Assembly (NCBI GenBank): GCA_018715935.1
Contig: DVKR01000029.1
Span: 1 to 64,000 of the forward strand
Length of the DNA stretch: 64,000 nucleotides
Direction of reading: 5' to 3'
Source: Candidatus Aphodovivens excrementavium
GTDB taxonomy: Bacteria > Actinomycetota > Coriobacteriia > Coriobacteriales > Eggerthellaceae
The notes under the pieces were generated by a model. It had not been told where the DNA came from, did no database searches, and saw nothing but the letters and a program-made list of their open reading frames with translations. Below, in pieces: positions 21,775 to 29,469 of this stretch. The position numbers and the translations under genes are program-made. The first letter of the stretch is position 1. Every line of letters starts with the position of its first letter.

Positions 21775-23877
21775 ATGACTAAAAAACTTTTGATGGCCAA
21801 TGAGGCGTTTGCGCATGCCGCGCTCGAGGCCGGCGTGCGTGTTGTTGCGGGATATCCGGGCACGCCGTCTTCCGAGCTTATCGAAACGGTGGCGAGGCTG
21901 CATGCCGAAGGGCATGCTCACGGCGTGCATGTGGAGTGGTCGACCAACGAGAAGGCGGCATTGGAGCTTCTGGCGGGGGCGTCGTACGCAGGCGCACGCT
22001 GCCTGTTCACCTGCAAGCAGGTTGGCCTCAACGTTGCAAGCGACGCCTTGATGAGCTTGAACTACGTGGGCTGCGGCGGAGGGCTCGTGCTCTTTGTTGC
22101 CGACGACCCCGGTCCCATTTCATCGCAGACCGAGCAAGACACCAGGCGTTTCGCGGGATTTGCAAAGGTGCCTGTGCTGGATCCTTCTACCCCCGAAGAA
22201 GGCTTCGCCATGATGAAAGCAGCGTTCGACCTGTCTGAGCGCCACCATACGCCGGTGATCGTGCGTCCTACTACGCGCATTTGCCATGCCTCCACGTTCT
22301 TCGACGTGCAAGACGAGACGGTTTCGCGCCCGCTGCCCGAAGGCGGCTTTAGAAAAAGCCCGAAATGGGTGATTTTCCCACGAAGAGCCTGGGAAGCGCA
22401 TGGGGAGATAAACGAGCGGCTGCGTTGCATGCAGCGAGAGTTCTGCGAGCCGCCGCTGTCGCGTTTCAACTCGGTGACCGAAGTTGCGCCCGGCGGCTCC
22501 ATTGATCTGGCTCCTTCGTTTACCGGGGCGGAATTCGTTTCCGCTTTGGACGCCCAGGAGGCAATGGACGATGTAATGGAATGGGAGGGCGTCGCTCGAC
22601 CCGTTGCCGAAACGGCGGACGCGCCTTCGGTGGGGGTAGTCGCAGGGGGCGTTTCTGCTGCGTATGCGCGCGAGGCGCTGCGTATGCTAGAACAGGCTCA
22701 AGAAGCGGCCGGCAAGCAACTGCCTGCCTACCGATTCATGCAGGTGGGCACTCCGTTTCCCTTCCCCGAAGATCTCGCACGCTCGTTTTTGAAGGGCTTG
22801 GATAACGTGGTGGTGTTTGAAGAGCTTGATCATGTTTTGGAAGACGGCCTTGTTCGGACAATTGTGGAAAAGCATCTCGCGTGCAGCGTGCTTGGTCGTT
22901 CGTCGGGCATGTTGCGAGACCGGGGAGAGAATTCAACCGAAGATATCCTCAACAGCCTAACGAGCTTTTTTGGGGTCTATGCCGACGCCGATCTTGACCG
23001 CTCGCTTCAATCGCGCCAGCCTTTCCGTTTTGAAGGAGATCTGCCAACCCGTCCTCCAGTGCTGTGTGCAGGATGCCCTCATCGAGGCAGCTTCTACGCG
23101 GTAAAGCGCGCGCTTGGCAAGAAAGAGGCGGTGCTTTGCGGGGACATCGGCTGCTACACTTTGGGAAACGCTGCTCCGCTTGATGCGGTTGACACGTGTT
23201 TGTGCATGGGCGGCGGCATTACGATGGCGCAGGGGTTCTCTGTGGTGGAGCCGCAAAAAAAGCAGGTTGCCTTTGTGGGCGACTCCACGTTTTTTGCGAG
23301 CGGCCTTACCGGAATTGCGAACGCCGTTTACAACGGTCACGACATAACGGTATGCGTGTTGGATAACGCAACAACGGCGATGACCGGCGCGCAGCCTCAC
23401 CCGGGCACGGGCGTCACACTGATGGGAGAGCATCGCAAGCCCATCGACATCGAAGCCGTTCTGCGTGCGTTGGGCGTGGAGTGCATTGTGTGCGCAAACC
23501 CGCTCGATCTGCATGAATCGGTTGCGGCGGCTGCCGAAGCGATAGAGTACGCAGGGCCTTCGGCTTTGATATTCCAAAGCCCGTGTGTGCAACTGAAAAA
23601 GCCCGATCCGGCAGCAATGGTTAACCCGGATCTATGCACCGGTTGCAAGAAATGCATTACCGAGATAGGTTGTCCTGCAATTGGCTTTGATGCCGGCGCG
23701 CAAGGTCCGCGTTCGAGGAATCGCGGTCAGGCGTTCATTGATTCTAGTCAATGCAACGGCTGCAAGTTGTGCACGCAGGTGTGTCCTTTTAAGAGCATCG
23801 TTTTGACGAGTGATTCTCCTGCCGATGCTGCGGCGGCACGTGGCGCTACCAATGCCGAGGAGGCCAACCATGATTAA
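21775..23877 (+). CDS. iorA: Indolepyruvate:ferredoxin oxidoreductase, alpha subunit
   Basis: About 700 residues from ATG 21775. The N-terminal pyrimidine-binding TPP domain begins MTKKLLMANEAFAHAALEAG with GYPGTPSSE; the pyrophosphate TPP domain has CAGCPHRGSFYAV, GDIGCYTLG and the GDSTFFASGLTG...NATTAMTG motif. The C-terminus carries two 4Fe-4S motifs (CTGCKKC...GCP and CNGCKLCTQVCP). With IorB it converts aryl pyruvates from Trp, Phe and Tyr to aryl-acetyl-CoA and reduces ferredoxin, in the cytoplasm. The start lacks a strong Shine-Dalgarno, so a nearby alternative is possible. Confidence 0.94.
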   Translation: MTKKLLMANEAFAHAALEAGVRVVAGYPGTPSSELIETVARLHAEGHAHGVHVEWSTNEKAALELLAGASYAGARCLFTCKQVGLNVASDALMSLNYVGCGGGLVLFVADDPGPISSQTEQDTRRFAGFAKVPVLDPSTPEEGFAMMKAAFDLSERHHTPVIVRPTTRICHASTFFDVQDETVSRPLPEGGFRKSPKWVIFPRRAWEAHGEINERLRCMQREFCEPPLSRFNSVTEVAPGGSIDLAPSFTGAEFVSALDAQEAMDDVMEWEGVARPVAETADAPSVGVVAGGVSAAYAREALRMLEQAQEAAGKQLPAYRFMQVGTPFPFPEDLARSFLKGLDNVVVFEELDHVLEDGLVRTIVEKHLACSVLGRSSGMLRDRGENSTEDILNSLTSFFGVYADADLDRSLQSRQPFRFEGDLPTRPPVLCAGCPHRGSFYAVKRALGKKEAVLCGDIGCYTLGNAAPLDAVDTCLCMGGGITMAQGFSVVEPQKKQVAFVGDSTFFASGLTGIANAVYNGHDITVCVLDNATTAMTGAQPHPGTGVTLMGEHRKPIDIEAVLRALGVECIVCANPLDLHESVAAAAEAIEYAGPSALIFQSPCVQLKKPDPAAMVNPDLCTGCKKCITEIGCPAIGFDAGAQGPRSRNRGQAFIDSSQCNGCKLCTQVCPFKSIVLTSDSPADAAAARGATNAEEANHD

Positions 23878-24466
23878 CATCCTATTGGCGGGTGTTGGCG
23901 GTCAGGGAACCGTACTAGCGGCAAAAGTGCTGGCACAAGCGGCTCAGAACAAAGGCTGGCAGGTTCGCACGGCTGAAACAATTGGCATGGCGCAGCGCGG
24001 CGGCAGCGTGGTGTCTCATGTTCGCATGGGCTCCGAAGGCGAGGCGGTGCATGCGCCTCTCGTTACGCCGGGGACGGCGGATGTGATTATCGCATTCGAG
24101 CCGGGCGAGGCGGCGCGCTCGCTGGGCTATCTGAAACCGGGCGGCACCGTGGTGAGCGCTACGTCGCTCGTGCAACCGGTGACCGCGGCACTTTCGTCTG
24201 CCCCTTATAGCGCATCCGAGGTTGTTGCGAATCTTCGTGAAGCGCTCGACCGCGCAGATGCGTCGTTGCGCTTGGTGAACGATGGGGAAGTCCTGGCCGC
24301 TTTGGGCAATCGGCGCGCCCTGAACACGGTTCTTCTTGCGACTGCGGTGGCGTGTGGGGCCGTGCCGCTTACCCTTGAGGAGCTGAAACGCGCGGTGACT
24401 GCGTGCGTGAAGCCGCAGTTCGTCGACGTAAACATCGCAGCAATTGATGCAGCCGCGCAGCGATGA
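23870..24466 (+). CDS. iorB: Indolepyruvate:ferredoxin oxidoreductase, beta subunit
   Basis: 198 residues of the 2-oxoacid:acceptor oxidoreductase gamma-type fold: ILLAGVGGQGTVLAAKVLA at the start, then AETIGMAQRGGSVVSHVRMG and the DVIIAFEPGEAARSL region. It binds CoA and completes the IorAB complex. It overlaps iorA by eight bases, with GAGGAGG inside the iorA end, so the two are translationally coupled. Confidence 0.95.
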   Translation: MINILLAGVGGQGTVLAAKVLAQAAQNKGWQVRTAETIGMAQRGGSVVSHVRMGSEGEAVHAPLVTPGTADVIIAFEPGEAARSLGYLKPGGTVVSATSLVQPVTAALSSAPYSASEVVANLREALDRADASLRLVNDGEVLAALGNRRALNTVLLATAVACGAVPLTLEELKRAVTACVKPQFVDVNIAAIDAAAQR

Positions 24467-24581: not shown

Positions 24582-24611
24582 TTGACGGCATTTCGCCCCT
24601 ACCGCTATTAT
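24582..24611 (+). promoter_or_regulatory. Promoter of the T-box/ECF transporter operon
   Basis: TTGACG (24582-24587), an 18-base spacer and TATTAT (24606-24611). The transcript would begin near 24618, at the 5' base of the T-box leader. Confidence 0.75.
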
Positions 24612-24617
24612 GCCCAC

Positions 24618-24890
24618 CATAAACCTGTGACGTGGAGGTAAAACCCAGCCAGGCGCAGTACAGAGAGCGGGCGATGCTGAGAATCCCGCAGAGAGCAGTT
24701 GGGCAAATGGACCACCGAGGGCGAGGGGCGTTGTCGCGCAAGCGGCCAATCCGAGACGTACGCCGGCGTTAACGGCAGAGGGTGTGATAGCATCTTCGTG
24801 AGAGGGCTCCCGCAAGGGAGTCAAGAAAAGGTGGCACCGCGGATCTTCAATCCGTCCTTTTCGCGAAAGCGACAAGGGCGGATTTTTTTA
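24618..24890 (+). promoter_or_regulatory. T-box riboswitch leader, tryptophan-type
   Basis: The hallmark T-box AGGTGGCACCGCGG lies at 24829-24842. Upstream are stem I elements: an AGTA box at 24657-24660, AGAGAG repeats, a GATG (GNUG-like) motif, and a distal stem GCGGG/CCCGC. On the 3' side of stem I, TGG at 24708-24710 followed by A is the best specifier, that is tryptophan UGG. The acceptor-binding bulge reads UGGC, which pairs with a tRNA ending GCCA; a G discriminator is typical of bacterial tRNA-Trp. A terminator follows, so uncharged tRNA-Trp should allow read-through into the ECF operon. The specifier is read by eye, not folded. Confidence 0.85.
24849..24889 (+). terminator. Regulated terminator of the T-box leader
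   Basis: Stem AATCCGTCCTT (24849-24859) pairs with AAGGGCGGATT (24874-24884, one G-U pair) and is followed by a T run to 24889. It competes with the antiterminator formed by the T-box sequence. Confidence 0.85.
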
Positions 24891-25067
24891 TTCTCCCGGT
24901 CCTTTTCTCACGAGGAGACCCTGCGAAGGCGGGCTAGCGGCAACGGTGGCTCGCAGGCAAGGCCGACGTTTCGGCGTCGGCGGGGTGGGCGCTCCGCTGC
25001 AAGCGGAGCGGCCGCAGAGTTCGGGCAGCGTGCTCGACCTGCGGTCAGTCGAGGAAAGGACGAAAAA
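24891..25067 (+). other. Structured leader segment between T-box terminator and the first ECF gene
   Basis: 177 bases, non-coding, with three strong successive hairpins: CCTGCGA/TCGCAGG (24920-24926, 24951-24957), GCCGACG/CGTCGGC (24962-24968, 24975-24981), and CGCTCCGCT/AGCGGAGCG (24990-24998, 25002-25010). None has a T tail, so they are not simple terminators. A GAGGAAAGG ribosome site closes the segment. Confidence 0.55.
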
Positions 25068-25640
25068 ATGACTGACATTGCAATGAAGCGTGAGATGAAC
25101 GTCAAGGAGAAGGGCGGGCTCCGCACATCCGACCTGGTGCTTGCTGCGGTGCTTATCGCGGCAGGTGCCGTGCTGAAGCTCGTCGTGGGCATGGTGTTCC
25201 AAGGCGGCGTCAAGCCTAACTTCATGATTGCGGCGTACTGCCTAGCGCTGCTGCTCATTCGGCCGAACACATACAGGCAGGGTGCCGCTTACGGCGCCGT
25301 CATCGGCCTTATCACCGGTGCGGTGTCTCAGATCCCGCTGCTGTGCGGAACCCCGTTCGTGAACTTTGCCTCCGAGCTTGCCGGCGGCATTGTCATCGGC
25401 ATGTTGGCAGCCGTCCCGCAAAAGGCGGGCAAGCTCAATCTCATCCCCACCGTGGGCACGTTCGTCGCAACGTTTATCTCGGGTGGGCTGTTTTCGTTGA
25501 TCGTCGTGATCATGCGGAGCATGGACGCGATGGCAGGTCTGGTTCAGTATGGCCCCATCGTGATATTCGCGGCGCTGTGCAATGCGGTGCTGGTGGGTGT
25601 GCTGATCATCCCGCTGCGTCGTGCCCTTCGTCGGAGCTAG
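25068..25640 (+). CDS. ECF transporter S component, probable tryptophan transporter (TrpP-like)
   Basis: 190 residues with five to six membrane helices. The first helices contain LVLAAVLIAAGAVLKLVVGM and GGVKPNFMIAAYCLALLLI; the Gly-Gly-x-Lys-Pro-x-Phe-Met stretch resembles Bacillus TrpP. It is the substrate-binding membrane subunit of an energy-coupling-factor importer whose A, A' and T subunits follow. The tryptophan-type T-box leader in front supports tryptophan as substrate; family resemblance alone would not settle it. GAGGAAAGG lies before ATG 25068. Confidence 0.82.
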   Translation: MTDIAMKREMNVKEKGGLRTSDLVLAAVLIAAGAVLKLVVGMVFQGGVKPNFMIAAYCLALLLIRPNTYRQGAAYGAVIGLITGAVSQIPLLCGTPFVNFASELAGGIVIGMLAAVPQKAGKLNLIPTVGTFVATFISGGLFSLIVVIMRSMDAMAGLVQYGPIVIFAALCNAVLVGVLIIPLRRALRRS

Positions 25641-25675
25641 AGGCTTTGAGGGCAAGCGAAGGGAGGCAGCCTGAC

Positions 25676-26548
25676 ATGCGGAACCTCGAGCAAGAGAGAT
25701 CTGCGGCTCCGCTGGTGGAGATCGATCATCTCAGCTTCGCCTACGGAAAAGGGCAACGCTTGGCGCTTGACGACGTAACGCTTACGGTTCACCACGGCGA
25801 CTTTTTGGGAATTATCGGCGAAAGCGGAGCGGGGAAAACGACTCTAGGCCACTGCATGAACGGAGTCGTTCCCCATTATTTCAAGGGCGACTACTACGGG
25901 TCGGTGAAGGTGAACGGCGAAGACGTGTTCGACCTTCAGATAACCGACATCGCACGTGTTCTCGGAACGGTGGGGCAAGACGTAGACGGACAGATGGTAG
26001 CAGCGGTCGTAGAAGACGAGCTGCTCTATGGTTTGGAGAACTTCGGCGTCCCGGCAGCCGAGATAGAAAGCCGCCTTGTCCGTTCCTTGTCAGAGGTTGG
26101 CATCGCCGATTTACGGCATCGCGAGATTGCGACCTTATCTGGCGGCCAGAAGCAAAAGGTGGCGCTGGCGGCATTGCTGGCGTTGCGGCCTTGTGCCGTG
26201 TTGCTTGACGAGCCCACCGCCGAGCTCGACCCCCAATCAAGCGTGCAGGTGTTCGACTTGCTGCGCGCCCTTAATGAGAGGGGCGTTACCGTCGTCGTGA
26301 TTGAGCAGAAGGTGATGCTGCTTGCCGAATATGCCCGTCGCCTTGTGGTGATGGATCAGGGCAGCGTGGCGCTCTCCGGGTCGGTTGACGAGGTGTTCTC
26401 TCAGGTTGATCGCATGGTTGCGCTAGGGGTTAACTGCCCACGCGTCTCCCTTCTCACCTACGAGCTAGGCAGACGCGGGGTCGAATGCGGCGGCGTTTCA
26501 CGTACCGTGGAAGAGGCGGCGCTCCGTATCGAGGAGGTGCTGGCATGA
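25676..26548 (+). CDS. ECF transporter ATPase subunit A
   Basis: 290 residues, an ABC ATPase: Walker A GESGAGKTT near residue 48, Q-loop GTVGQDVDGQMV, signature LSGGQKQKVALA and Walker B AVLLDEPTAELD, then the H-loop region. It is the first of two ATPases that energise the ECF module. Start at ATG 25676 after GGGAGG. It overlaps the next ATPase gene by four bases. Confidence 0.94.
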   Translation: MRNLEQERSAAPLVEIDHLSFAYGKGQRLALDDVTLTVHHGDFLGIIGESGAGKTTLGHCMNGVVPHYFKGDYYGSVKVNGEDVFDLQITDIARVLGTVGQDVDGQMVAAVVEDELLYGLENFGVPAAEIESRLVRSLSEVGIADLRHREIATLSGGQKQKVALAALLALRPCAVLLDEPTAELDPQSSVQVFDLLRALNERGVTVVVIEQKVMLLAEYARRLVVMDQGSVALSGSVDEVFSQVDRMVALGVNCPRVSLLTYELGRRGVECGGVSRTVEEAALRIEEVLA

Positions 26549-27399
26549 GCGAGGTGATGCTCGAATTCGACGAGGTGGCGTTTCGCTACCGCGACCATGC
26601 GGTCATGGAGAAGGTGAGCTTTTCTGTGAGGCGCGGCGAGTTCGTCGCGTTGCTAGGCCCCAACGGCGTGGGAAAGTCGACCAGCTTGCGCCTTGCCGAT
26701 GGGCTGTTGCATCCCACGAAGGGAGCGGTTCGCGTGGCGGGGCGCGACACCACGCAGACTCGCACAAGCGATCTTGCGCGCCAGGTTGGGTTTTTATTTC
26801 AGAATCCCGACCGCCAGATCTGCCGCAATACTGTACGTGACGAGATAGCCTTTACGTTGCGCACGCTGCACGGCGACGACGATCCGCGCGTTGCCGCGCG
26901 CACTGCCGAAGTGCTGGAACTGCTTCATCTTGATGGCGACGCCGATCCTTTCAGTTTGTCCAAGGGGCAGCGCCAAGCCGTTGCGTTGGCGGGCTTGATT
27001 GCCGCCGCGCCCGAACTTCTGTTGCTAGACGAGCCCACCACGGGGTTCGACTACGCCGAGTGTATGGAGATGATGGCGCATATCAAGCGCATGAACCAGG
27101 CGGGCACGACGGTGCTGATGGTGTGCCACGACATGGAAGTTGTGCTCGACTTCGCCAGCCGTGCAATCGTTTTGGCGGATGGCGGGGTTGTTGCCGACGC
27201 ACCGGTGCCCGACGTGTTCTCCAATCGCGCGGTGCTTGAGAGAGCCGCTTTGCTTCCGCCGCAAATCTGCGCGCTCTCGCAAAGGCTTGCTCCTGCACAC
27301 CCCGAGCTTGGGGGCATGTACGGAGTGGATGAGATGGTCGATGCGGTTGTAGCTTCCGCCAAGGCATCGAAGGCAGCCACAACGAAGGAGGTAGGGTAA
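26545..27399 (+). CDS. ECF transporter ATPase subunit A'
   Basis: 284 residues. Walker A GPNGVGKST, Q-loop FLFQNPDRQICRNTVRDEIAF (the NPDxQ motif common in ECF ATPases), signature LSKGQRQAVALAG (Lys replaces one Gly), Walker B LLLLDEPTTGFD, and the switch His in VCHDMEVV. It pairs with the preceding ATPase as a heterodimer. Its stop overlaps the EcfT start by one base. Confidence 0.94.
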   Translation: MSEVMLEFDEVAFRYRDHAVMEKVSFSVRRGEFVALLGPNGVGKSTSLRLADGLLHPTKGAVRVAGRDTTQTRTSDLARQVGFLFQNPDRQICRNTVRDEIAFTLRTLHGDDDPRVAARTAEVLELLHLDGDADPFSLSKGQRQAVALAGLIAAAPELLLLDEPTTGFDYAECMEMMAHIKRMNQAGTTVLMVCHDMEVVLDFASRAIVLADGGVVADAPVPDVFSNRAVLERAALLPPQICALSQRLAPAHPELGGMYGVDEMVDAVVASAKASKAATTKEVG

Positions 27400-28166
27400 T
27401 GGGAAGCGTGTTTTCGTATGTGCCGGGCAGCAGCTTTTTTCACAAGCTCAGCCCGCTGACCATGTTTGCCGCCGCGTTTATTGTGTGTATCGCCGCTGCT
27501 GCAAGCACGAGCGCCCTGTTCATTCTGGCGCTGATAGTTGCGTTACTGGCTTGCTCCGCAGTTGCCGGCGTGTTTCGCCAAAGCGCCAAGCTGGTGTTGG
27601 GTCTGGGCGCAATCGCACTTATCGCGTTGGTGCTGCAGGTGGTTTTCGTCCGCACCGGCGAGGTGTATGCGCAGGCAGGCCCGCTTTTGGTAACAAGCGG
27701 AGGCGTGTCAAGCGGCATACTGGTAGTGCTCAAGGTGGTATGCATGGTTTTACCCCTGAGCCTCGCCTTCATGGTGGCGCCGGTGAACGCGCTTGCCAAC
27801 GAGCTGGTAAGCAAGTGCCGCCTACCCTACAAGTATGCGTTTGCCGCTACCACCGCCATTCGCTTCATTCCGCTGTTCATGCAGGAAATGAGCCAGATTA
27901 TGGAAGCGCAAAAGGCGCGTGGTGTCCGTTTCGACACCCGCAACGTGTTCAAAAAGGTGGCGCTAATCGTTCCGCTTGCGGTTCCGCTGCTCGTCGATTC
28001 CGTCAAGCGGACTGACGCGATTGCCATTGGCGCAGAACTGCGCGGTTTCTCGCTGCGCGGACGCAGCAGCGCCTACCGCACGTATCCGTTCGGTGCACGT
28101 GATGCCGTGTTCGCGTTTGCGTGCATCGTAGTGCTTGTCTTGGCCATTGCCGTCAACATCGTCTAG
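27399..28166 (+). CDS. ECF transporter transmembrane subunit T
   Basis: 255 residues with about five to six membrane helices. Starts GSVFSYVPGSSFFHKLSPLTM, typical of EcfT. The cytoplasmic coupling helices carry Ala-Arg-Gly (MEAQKARGVRF) and a second Arg-Gly region (ELRGFSLRGRSSAY), which contact the two ATPases. It couples the ATPases to the S component. Being co-transcribed with one S gene, the module appears dedicated (group I type). Confidence 0.93.
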   Translation: MGSVFSYVPGSSFFHKLSPLTMFAAAFIVCIAAAASTSALFILALIVALLACSAVAGVFRQSAKLVLGLGAIALIALVLQVVFVRTGEVYAQAGPLLVTSGGVSSGILVVLKVVCMVLPLSLAFMVAPVNALANELVSKCRLPYKYAFAATTAIRFIPLFMQEMSQIMEAQKARGVRFDTRNVFKKVALIVPLAVPLLVDSVKRTDAIAIGAELRGFSLRGRSSAYRTYPFGARDAVFAFACIVVLVLAIAVNIV

Positions 28167-28227: not shown

Positions 28228-29469
28228 ATGCAACTCACAGACGAACAATTTTCCCTGCTCAAAGAACAGTTCCGCACGCTTAAGGACCGCTCGGCCTTCT
28301 ATGCTAAGAAATTTGAAGGCATCGATCTAACCGACGTTCAAACCCAGGCAGACTTCGAAAAGCTTCCTTTCTCGGAAAAAGCCGATCTGCGCGCAGCCTA
28401 TCCGCTGGGGTTGCAGGCGGTTCCCGATGAAGAGGTCGTGCGCATCCACAGCTCTTCGGGCACGACAGGCACGCCGGTTATCATTCCCTACACGCAGCAA
28501 GACGTCACCGACTGGGCAATACAGTTCGCGCGCTGCTACGAGACGGCGGGCATCACCAGCGCCGACCGTATCCAGATCACGCCTGGCTATGGTTTGTGGA
28601 CGGCGGGCATCGGCTTTCAGTTGGGGGCAGAACGTCTGGGGGCTATGGCTATCCCTATGGGTCCGGGCAACACTGAAAAGCAGCTGCAGATGATGCAGGA
28701 TCTGAAGTCGACGGTGTTAGGCGCAACTAGCTCCTATGCCCTTCTTTTGGCGGAAGAGATAAACCAGCGCGACCTCCGCGACAAGATCCACCTGCGCAAG
28801 GGCGTTATCGGATCCGAGCGCTGGGGAGAGAAGATGCGCCGCCGCATCGAAAACGAGCTTGGCGTTGAGATCTTCGACATCTATGGCCTAACGGAAGTCT
28901 ACGGTCCGGGCATTGGCATTTCCTGTCACGAGCATGCGGGCATGCACGTATGGAGCGATTACGTCTATATCGAGATTGTTGACCCCGATACCGGCGAGGT
29001 GCTTCCCGACGGAGAGACGGGCGAGCTGGTTCTCACCACGTTGCGCAAGCAGGGCGCGCCGCTTATTCGCTATCGCACGCACGACCTTACGCGCATCATT
29101 CCCGGCGCGTGCAAATGCGCACACGGCGACAAGCACCCGCGTATCGATATTCTGGTTGGACGCACCGACGATATGTTCAAAGTCAAAGGCTGCAACATGT
29201 TCCCCGCCCAGGTGGAAGACGTCATTGCCATCACCGATGGAGCCAGCAGCGAGTACCAGGTGATGATCGAGAACATTTCCGGGCGCGACGTGCTTACGGT
29301 GCTGTTCGAGACGCCGCTTGAGGGAGAAGAGAAGAGGCGTTGCGAAGAAGAGCTCGCTGGCATCTTCAAGGCCAAGATCGGCTGCACTCCCGATGCCGTT
29401 GGCGTGCCGATGGGCGAGCTGCCGCGTTCCGAAAAGAAGACCAAACGCATCTTTGACAGCCGCTACTAG
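28228..29469 (+). CDS. Phenylacetate-CoA ligase-like aryl-CoA ligase (PaaK family)
   Basis: 413 residues, a short PaaK-type adenylate-forming enzyme. The P-loop SSGTTGTPVIIPYT lies near residue 77, the GYGLWTAGIGFQLGAERLGA region and IYGLTEVYGPG follow, and the C-terminal domain contains RTDDMFKVKGCNMFPAQVED and a Lys-rich end (RSEKKTKRI). It forms aryl-acyl-CoA from the acid, CoA and ATP, or the reverse. Position after iorAB and a tryptophan importer suggests indoleacetate, phenylacetate or a related acid. A 35-base segment spanning its 3' end is duplicated just downstream. Confidence 0.9.
   Translation: MQLTDEQFSLLKEQFRTLKDRSAFYAKKFEGIDLTDVQTQADFEKLPFSEKADLRAAYPLGLQAVPDEEVVRIHSSSGTTGTPVIIPYTQQDVTDWAIQFARCYETAGITSADRIQITPGYGLWTAGIGFQLGAERLGAMAIPMGPGNTEKQLQMMQDLKSTVLGATSSYALLLAEEINQRDLRDKIHLRKGVIGSERWGEKMRRRIENELGVEIFDIYGLTEVYGPGIGISCHEHAGMHVWSDYVYIEIVDPDTGEVLPDGETGELVLTTLRKQGAPLIRYRTHDLTRIIPGACKCAHGDKHPRIDILVGRTDDMFKVKGCNMFPAQVEDVIAITDGASSEYQVMIENISGRDVLTVLFETPLEGEEKRRCEEELAGIFKAKIGCTPDAVGVPMGELPRSEKKTKRIFDSRY

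Follow-up and report, generated by a model that had tools for sequence, protein, structure and literature searches.

The window, a 64,000-nucleotide stretch from an Eggerthellaceae bacterium of the gut or rumen, holds an ECF transporter cassette (S–A–A–T, 25068–28166) behind a structured leader. We asked what this leader senses, what the transporter imports, and in which direction the neighboring enzymes work. The leader at 24618–24890 is very probably a transcriptional T-box that reads tRNA-Trp and controls a TrpP-type ECF tryptophan importer; from the computed sequence, structure, tRNA match, and conservation, we infer binding, read-through, and substrate. The wider locus, with iorAB upstream and paaK downstream of the T-box and its cassette (Table 1), is an addition to the first-pass annotation of this DNA.

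Table 1. Features of the tryptophan locus, in window coordinates
Feature	Position	Strand	Evidence
iorA, indolepyruvate ferredoxin oxidoreductase alpha, upstream of the T-box	21775..23877	+	TIGR03336, E 1.3e-190
iorB, indolepyruvate ferredoxin oxidoreductase beta	23873..24466	+	POR, IOR_beta
Promoter-like site TTGACG-18-TATTAT	24582..24611	+	consensus match only
T-box leader (stem I, stem II region, stem III, antiterminator)	24618..24862	+	RF00230 match; covariation over 50 orthologous leaders
AGUA-box position (AGGUAAAA), 5' side of specifier loop	24636..24643	+	alignment to RF00230
Specifier codon UGG (Trp), followed by A24711	24708..24710	+	RF00230 alignment; UGG in 63/63 T-boxes directly upstream of orthologous S genes
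Antiterminator AAAAGG...GCGGAU/AUCCGU-CCUUUU	24826..24861	+	fold -8.8 kcal/mol; helices 97.7 and 98.3% paired, 50 sequences
Acceptor bulge UGGC, complementary to tRNA-Trp GCCA-3'	24832..24835	+	own tRNA-Trp gene ends G73-CCA
Intrinsic terminator, overlapping the antiterminator 3' half	24849..24890	+	-23.5 kcal/mol, z -6.2
S component (probably TrpP-type), 190 aa	25068..25640	+	S-component fold; PF17099 TrpP matches in 41/55 homologues
ECF ATPase 1	25676..26548	+	TIGR04520, E 5.7e-63; ABC_tran
ECF ATPase 2	26545..27399	+	TIGR04521, E 9.1e-60
ECF transmembrane T component (CbiQ family)	27399..28166	+	PF02361, E 1.3e-28
paaK, AMP-forming arylacetate-CoA ligase, about 60 nt after ecfT	28228..29469	+	TIGR02155, E 4.5e-114

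The first-pass annotation had called a T-box with a terminator at this locus and proposed an Infernal run with RF00230. In that run, cmscan aligned the whole model (positions 1–219) to the leader with 63.5 bits (E = 2e-13), which is lower than the Rfam gathering score of 93, and the T-box is unlisted at that threshold. RF00230 matched in 53 of 60 related genomes, with a score above 93 in only 7. The call was borne out by this match and by two hairpins at the 3′ end of the leader. The antiterminator, built on the T-box core AAAAGG-UGGC-ACC-GCGGAU (24826–24844), and the terminator are mutually exclusive, because 24849–24861 is common to both. None of 200 shuffled sequences was as stable as the terminator hairpin (24849–24884), which is followed by a U run. 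The minimum-free-energy fold of the whole leader did not recover the full T-box fold and was set aside. The promoter reported earlier is present, and sites of this type are not rare (2.5 expected per 9.5 kb scanned). An AGTA box had been placed at 24657–24660, but these bases align with those preceding the distal AGAGAG loop, and the AGUA-box place is taken by AGGUAAAA.

The stretch from the terminator to the S start codon (24895–25060) comprises about 165 GC-rich, hairpin-forming nucleotides (e.g., gccgacgtttcggcgtcggc and cgctccgctgcaagcggagcg); the S locus L091 has other hairpins at the matching place. A weak Twister-sister match at 24950–25005 (15.9 bits, E = 2) was dismissed as chance. 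The sole other T-box found in the genome (L002, G000:C10:53577–53912) lies upstream of pheS, with the core GGTGGUACCGCG and a probable UUC (Phe) specifier.

Stem I places UGG in its internal loop, between helices 24632–35/24712–15 and 24644–49/24698–703. The organism's own tRNA-Trp (G000:C2, L056) carries the matching CCA anticodon, in agreement with the UGG-A specifier suggested from the first reading. The same tRNA ends in G73-CCA, so the bulge UGGC pairs fully with GCCA. Two findings had been named beforehand as grounds for giving up the assignment, another codon in the specifier loop or a tRNA-Trp lacking G73, and neither came true. The earlier argument that UGGC demands a G discriminator stands only in part: G73 is there, but the bulge does not by itself demand it. 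UGGU replaces UGGC in 13 of the 63 orthologous T-boxes described below, and genomes with UGGU T-boxes (G043, G086, G088, G090, G091) also encode a tRNA-Trp with G73. A U–G wobble is evidently tolerated at the bulge, and the fourth bulge base alone is therefore weak evidence for tRNA identity.

In the proposed mechanism, uncharged tRNA-Trp would pair through its CCA anticodon with the specifier UGG and through its 3′ GCCA with the bulge UGGC. This pairing would stabilize the antiterminator, and RNA polymerase would read on into the ECF genes (S, A, A′, T). Charged tRNA-Trp would leave the terminator to form and transcription to stop, because it cannot pair at the bulge.

Covariation was assessed in an alignment of 50 orthologous leaders with a structure of 41 pairs, using partners slid by 1–3 columns as controls. 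In this structure 89.4% of the cells were paired, as compared with 38–46% after sliding, a percentage that leans toward the window because the structure was drawn from the window sequence. Changes on both sides were found in 34 of the 41 pairs, with a covariation score of 0.476 (0.10–0.14 when slid), and these compensatory changes are stronger evidence than the percentage paired. RNAalifold independently predicted most of the same helices from the alignment.

The S gene was found in 30 of the 60 related genomes. A T-box lay directly upstream of it in 22 of the 29 loci with a usable upstream region, and UGG was present in all 22. A wider scan, covering one genome each of 84,980 species, yielded 80 further S loci, partly from the same species as the first set. 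A T-box directly preceded S in 63 of these 80 loci, always with UGG (57 by pattern, 6 by eye). Four of the 63 carry a variant ACCAUGG core: in L112, L113, L118, and L131, GGUGGYACCAUGG replaces ACCGCGG, and the UGG specifier and the matching 3′ strand are kept. At L061 (G043:C17:119933–120180), a second, divergently oriented T-box lies near the S-linked one. T-boxes were also seen in Synergistaceae (L144, L146, L166); one published listing names only Firmicutes, Actinobacteria, Chloroflexi, Deinococcus-Thermus, and Geobacter (PMC3766115). The statement that T-boxes are less described in Actinobacteria had to be softened, as 32 of them are published from 12 of 19 actinobacterial genomes (PMC2494555), together with a T-box transcriptional attenuator of the C. 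glutamicum his operon (PMC9413887). Our literature search returned no report of a link between TrpP-ECF and a T-box or between a T-box and IOR; some clostridial T-boxes may appear in 2008–2009 surveys beyond its reach.

Two other kinds of tryptophan control were found at S genes. At L024, L035, L048–L051, L126, L132, and L142, S is preceded by a short leader open reading frame with a Trp run (e.g., MKKSIASLNNWWWRDANPFGRR), its Trp codons being covered by a hairpin and followed by a terminator; in G040, a WWW reading frame precedes trpB2–S. The WWW leader was absent from all 63 T-box loci. A competing antiterminator was not seen in the leader-peptide regions, where the terminator persisted in equilibrium folds of all three states. 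The tree of S proteins requires the leader-peptide state to have changed at least four times along well-supported branches. The leader peptide of G017 and the T-box of L092 both follow recN, as do several other T-boxes, so the control swap occurred at a syntenic site. Two genomes hold two tandem S genes behind a WWW leader peptide (G044:C10:7931–9266 and G059:C12:108907–110151), and the second gene of each pair may serve another substrate.

Treponema S genes have two 20-bp palindromes no more than about 190 nt from the S start (chance 0.012 per kb); the TTGACA of a probable promoter falls inside one of the two. The palindrome pattern gave 37 exact sites in 10 genomes, and the reversed pattern gave none. 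These operator sites stand upstream of trpE, trpG–trpD, the S gene, and paaK. A TrpR-family protein (PF01371) is encoded in all 10 genomes, and the operator is similar to the consensus that PMC9413887 gives for TrpR. Only two loci, L093 and L158, had no recognized tryptophan control. Three different tryptophan sensors converge on one transporter: the same S gene stands under a T-box, a leader-peptide attenuator, or a TrpR-type operator, with the input kept and the sensor changed.

The genes around the window cassette recur with these controls in several arrangements. Of two genomes in the same genus, G001 shows the order iorAB–Trp T-box–trpB2, which in G002 continues with paaK. A Trp T-box stands directly before paaK in G021 and G106, both of another genus. 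Seven clostridial and halanaerobial loci (L097, L100, L101, L104, L112, L118, L140) have the order T-box–S–A–A–T–iorA–iorB–paaK with short gaps, and a sheep rumen MAG (L094) has T-box–trpB2–S–A–A–T–iorA–iorB–paaK. Placement of all Eggerthellaceae paaK genes directly under a Trp T-box was ruled out, being true in 2 of the 30 nearest loci. At 700 aa, the product of the window iorA exceeds the usual length, and its match to the IOR alpha model is split in two; a second, ordinary iorA is present at G000:C37:450–2171.

Scarcity of tryptophan leads to higher expression under T-box and TrpR control alike. Controls induced by tryptophan starvation make sense for paaK and iorAB if these genes are biosynthetic, and their regulation suggests that IOR and PaaK may run reductively here, from indoleacetate to tryptophan. 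PaaK, an AMP-forming ligase, would convert the arylacetate to arylacetyl-CoA, IOR would carboxylate this reductively to indolepyruvate, and transamination would give tryptophan. Rumen bacteria incorporate indoleacetate into tryptophan. For Bacteroides, a biosynthetic role of IOR with an AMP-forming ligase has been suggested enzymologically, by analogy with methanogens (PMC13285125).

The opposite direction is a real possibility, if short of probable. In that case, iorAB and paaK would serve an oxidative fermentation (tryptophan to indoleacetate, ATP, and reduced ferredoxin), the transporter would feed this pathway, and the joint control would be incidental. Such fermentation of aromatic amino acids via 2-oxoacid:ferredoxin oxidoreductases is documented, although the window ligase belongs to the AMP-forming family, which has been argued to favor acyl-CoA synthesis (both PMC13285125). 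Nearly all relatives (55 of 60) have IOR genes, and 117 of 138 family genomes carry paaK, mostly without a T-box among the 30 nearest paaK loci. In the window, iorAB comes before the T-box rather than under its control, and paaK is possibly also read from a local promoter-like sequence (TTGATG-15-TATAAT). Starvation-induced control of a catabolic pathway would, however, be paradoxical. It would have to be accepted for the T-boxes directly before paaK, for those before the seven S–A–A–T–iorA–iorB–paaK operons, and for the Treponema paaK, which bears the operator of trpE.

The reductive direction concerns the flanking enzymes; the substrate of the transporter was approached through its S component. 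The S–A–A–T cassette had been called in the first-pass annotation, and family matches confirmed the two ECF ATPases and the CbiQ-family T component behind S. The first gene had been described as TrpP-like. The window S protein is a membrane protein; used alone, it gave no direct family match in Pfam, TrpP included, and nothing useful in NCBIfam and PDB sequence searches, so the alignment route was needed. Pfam TrpP (PF17099) matched 41 of the 55 aligned homologues, with a best value of 4.5e-13. The AlphaFold model of the S protein (pLDDT = 81.5) has the S-component fold: the top 18 rows of a VIA structure comparison were all S components (Z from 16.5 for PanT to 10.4), and the next unrelated row had Z = 8.7. 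Plain Foldseek gave weak E-values. Helix 1 contains A27-x3-A31, invariant in a 29-row alignment (A1), and the two alanines of such an AxxxA motif form the EcfT contact (PMC11109136). The S–A–A–T arrangement is conserved across Coriobacteriia, Clostridia, Synergistaceae, Treponema, and others. In L036 (G040), the S component and the first ATPase are apparently fused in one open reading frame of 497 aa.

Published work describes TrpP itself as a tryptophan transporter. Judged by its sequence relatives, the S component is probably a TrpP-type tryptophan binder; with its own energizing module, it would therefore import tryptophan when tRNA-Trp is under-charged. No trpA match was found in the organism's own genome (98.95% complete). 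Among the genomes with S, 5 of 30 have trpA, versus 12 of 30 without S, and the Clostridia with the iorAB–paaK operon are mixed for this gene. Since the co-occurrence is weak and the Clostridia are mixed, auxotrophy was not used as proof.

A T-box sensing tRNA-Trp would suit any route to tryptophan, and the ECF system might instead import a precursor (indole, indoleacetate, or indolepyruvate). The cassette is flanked by iorAB and paaK, whose products act on indolepyruvate and arylacetates, and the genes form one operon in Clostridia. We consider precursor import unlikely, because the S homologues match TrpP and because most Eggerthellaceae have the same T-box and S–A–A–T without adjoining iorAB or paaK, often beside recN. 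It is far less likely still that a neighboring triplet of the loop sequence AAAUGGA, readable in other frames as GGA (Gly) or AUG (Met), is the specifier for another tRNA, given that UGG holds its position in all 63 orthologous T-boxes, that the base after it varies, and that S orthologues lacking a T-box have Trp codon runs instead.

The window T-box, taken as a sensor of tRNA-Trp, looks recombinant from its sequence, with a 5′ half like that of a trpB2 T-box and a 3′ half like that of an ECF T-box. The trpB2-linked T-box of G001 is identical to it at 170 of 173 positions over 24618–24790 and at 61 of 100 over 24791–24890; for the S-linked T-box of L091, the values are 139 of 173 and 87 of 100. 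Diagnostic sites divide 18:1 (G001-like:L091-like) before about 24798 and 3:27 after it (Fisher 2e-9 at the best break, with no correction for having chosen it). On the simplest reading, a crossover within the T-box would have left the sensor half in place and swapped the expression platform and the genes behind it.

The window leader shares the stem I specifier, the AGAGAG distal loop, the UGGN bulge, and the competing terminator with other transcriptional T-boxes (RF00230), such as the Trp T-boxes of Firmicutes. It differs from the latter in its host (Eggerthellaceae, Actinomycetota), in its ECF cassette target, and in its position between iorAB and paaK, and from known T-boxes in that its two halves have different closest relatives. 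TrpP is a homologous S-component-like family, but nearly every S gene found here has a dedicated A–A′–T module behind it, and the window protein is too divergent for the TrpP model. The S fold, the two ATPases, and the CbiQ-type T component are shared with ECF systems of known S structure (PanT, ThiT, FolT, RibU); those import vitamins, whereas the window system is a predicted amino acid importer. A sequence search with the S protein returned no structurally solved relative.

The S-gene leader peptides resemble the attenuators of trp operons in their short Trp-run reading frame, hairpin, and terminator. In contrast to these, they precede an importer (trpB2 and importer in G040) rather than a biosynthetic operon, and they occupy the place held by the T-box in sister lineages. 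The pairing of iorAB with an AMP-forming PaaK-type ligase is likewise known from methanogens, where it is biosynthetic, and this role is proposed for Bacteroides (PMC13285125). Here, the starvation-responsive Trp controls (T-box and TrpR-type operator) lend independent support to the reductive direction.

As T-boxes go, this one is ordinary, and the transporter is probably a TrpP-type ECF system. The case is lifted by three sensors on one transporter, by the gene exchange behind a Trp T-box, and by the hint at the direction of IOR and PaaK. The three independent regulatory links assign tryptophan to a widespread ECF S-component family. We lean slightly toward viewing the locus as a tryptophan-acquisition island, in which Trp-starvation sensors control interchangeable routes (TrpP-ECF import; trpB2, from indole and serine; PaaK and then IOR, by reductive carboxylation of indoleacetate) and the T-box is the crossover joint for exchanging the controlled genes. 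If this is true, the T-box- or TrpR-controlled "fermentation" genes paaK and iorAB would be biosynthetic in some gut and rumen Eggerthellaceae, Clostridia, and Treponema. The result is a regulatory argument on the direction of IOR and arylacetate-CoA ligase in gut and rumen bacteria; depending on that direction, such organisms are either producers or consumers of the host-active metabolite indoleacetate.
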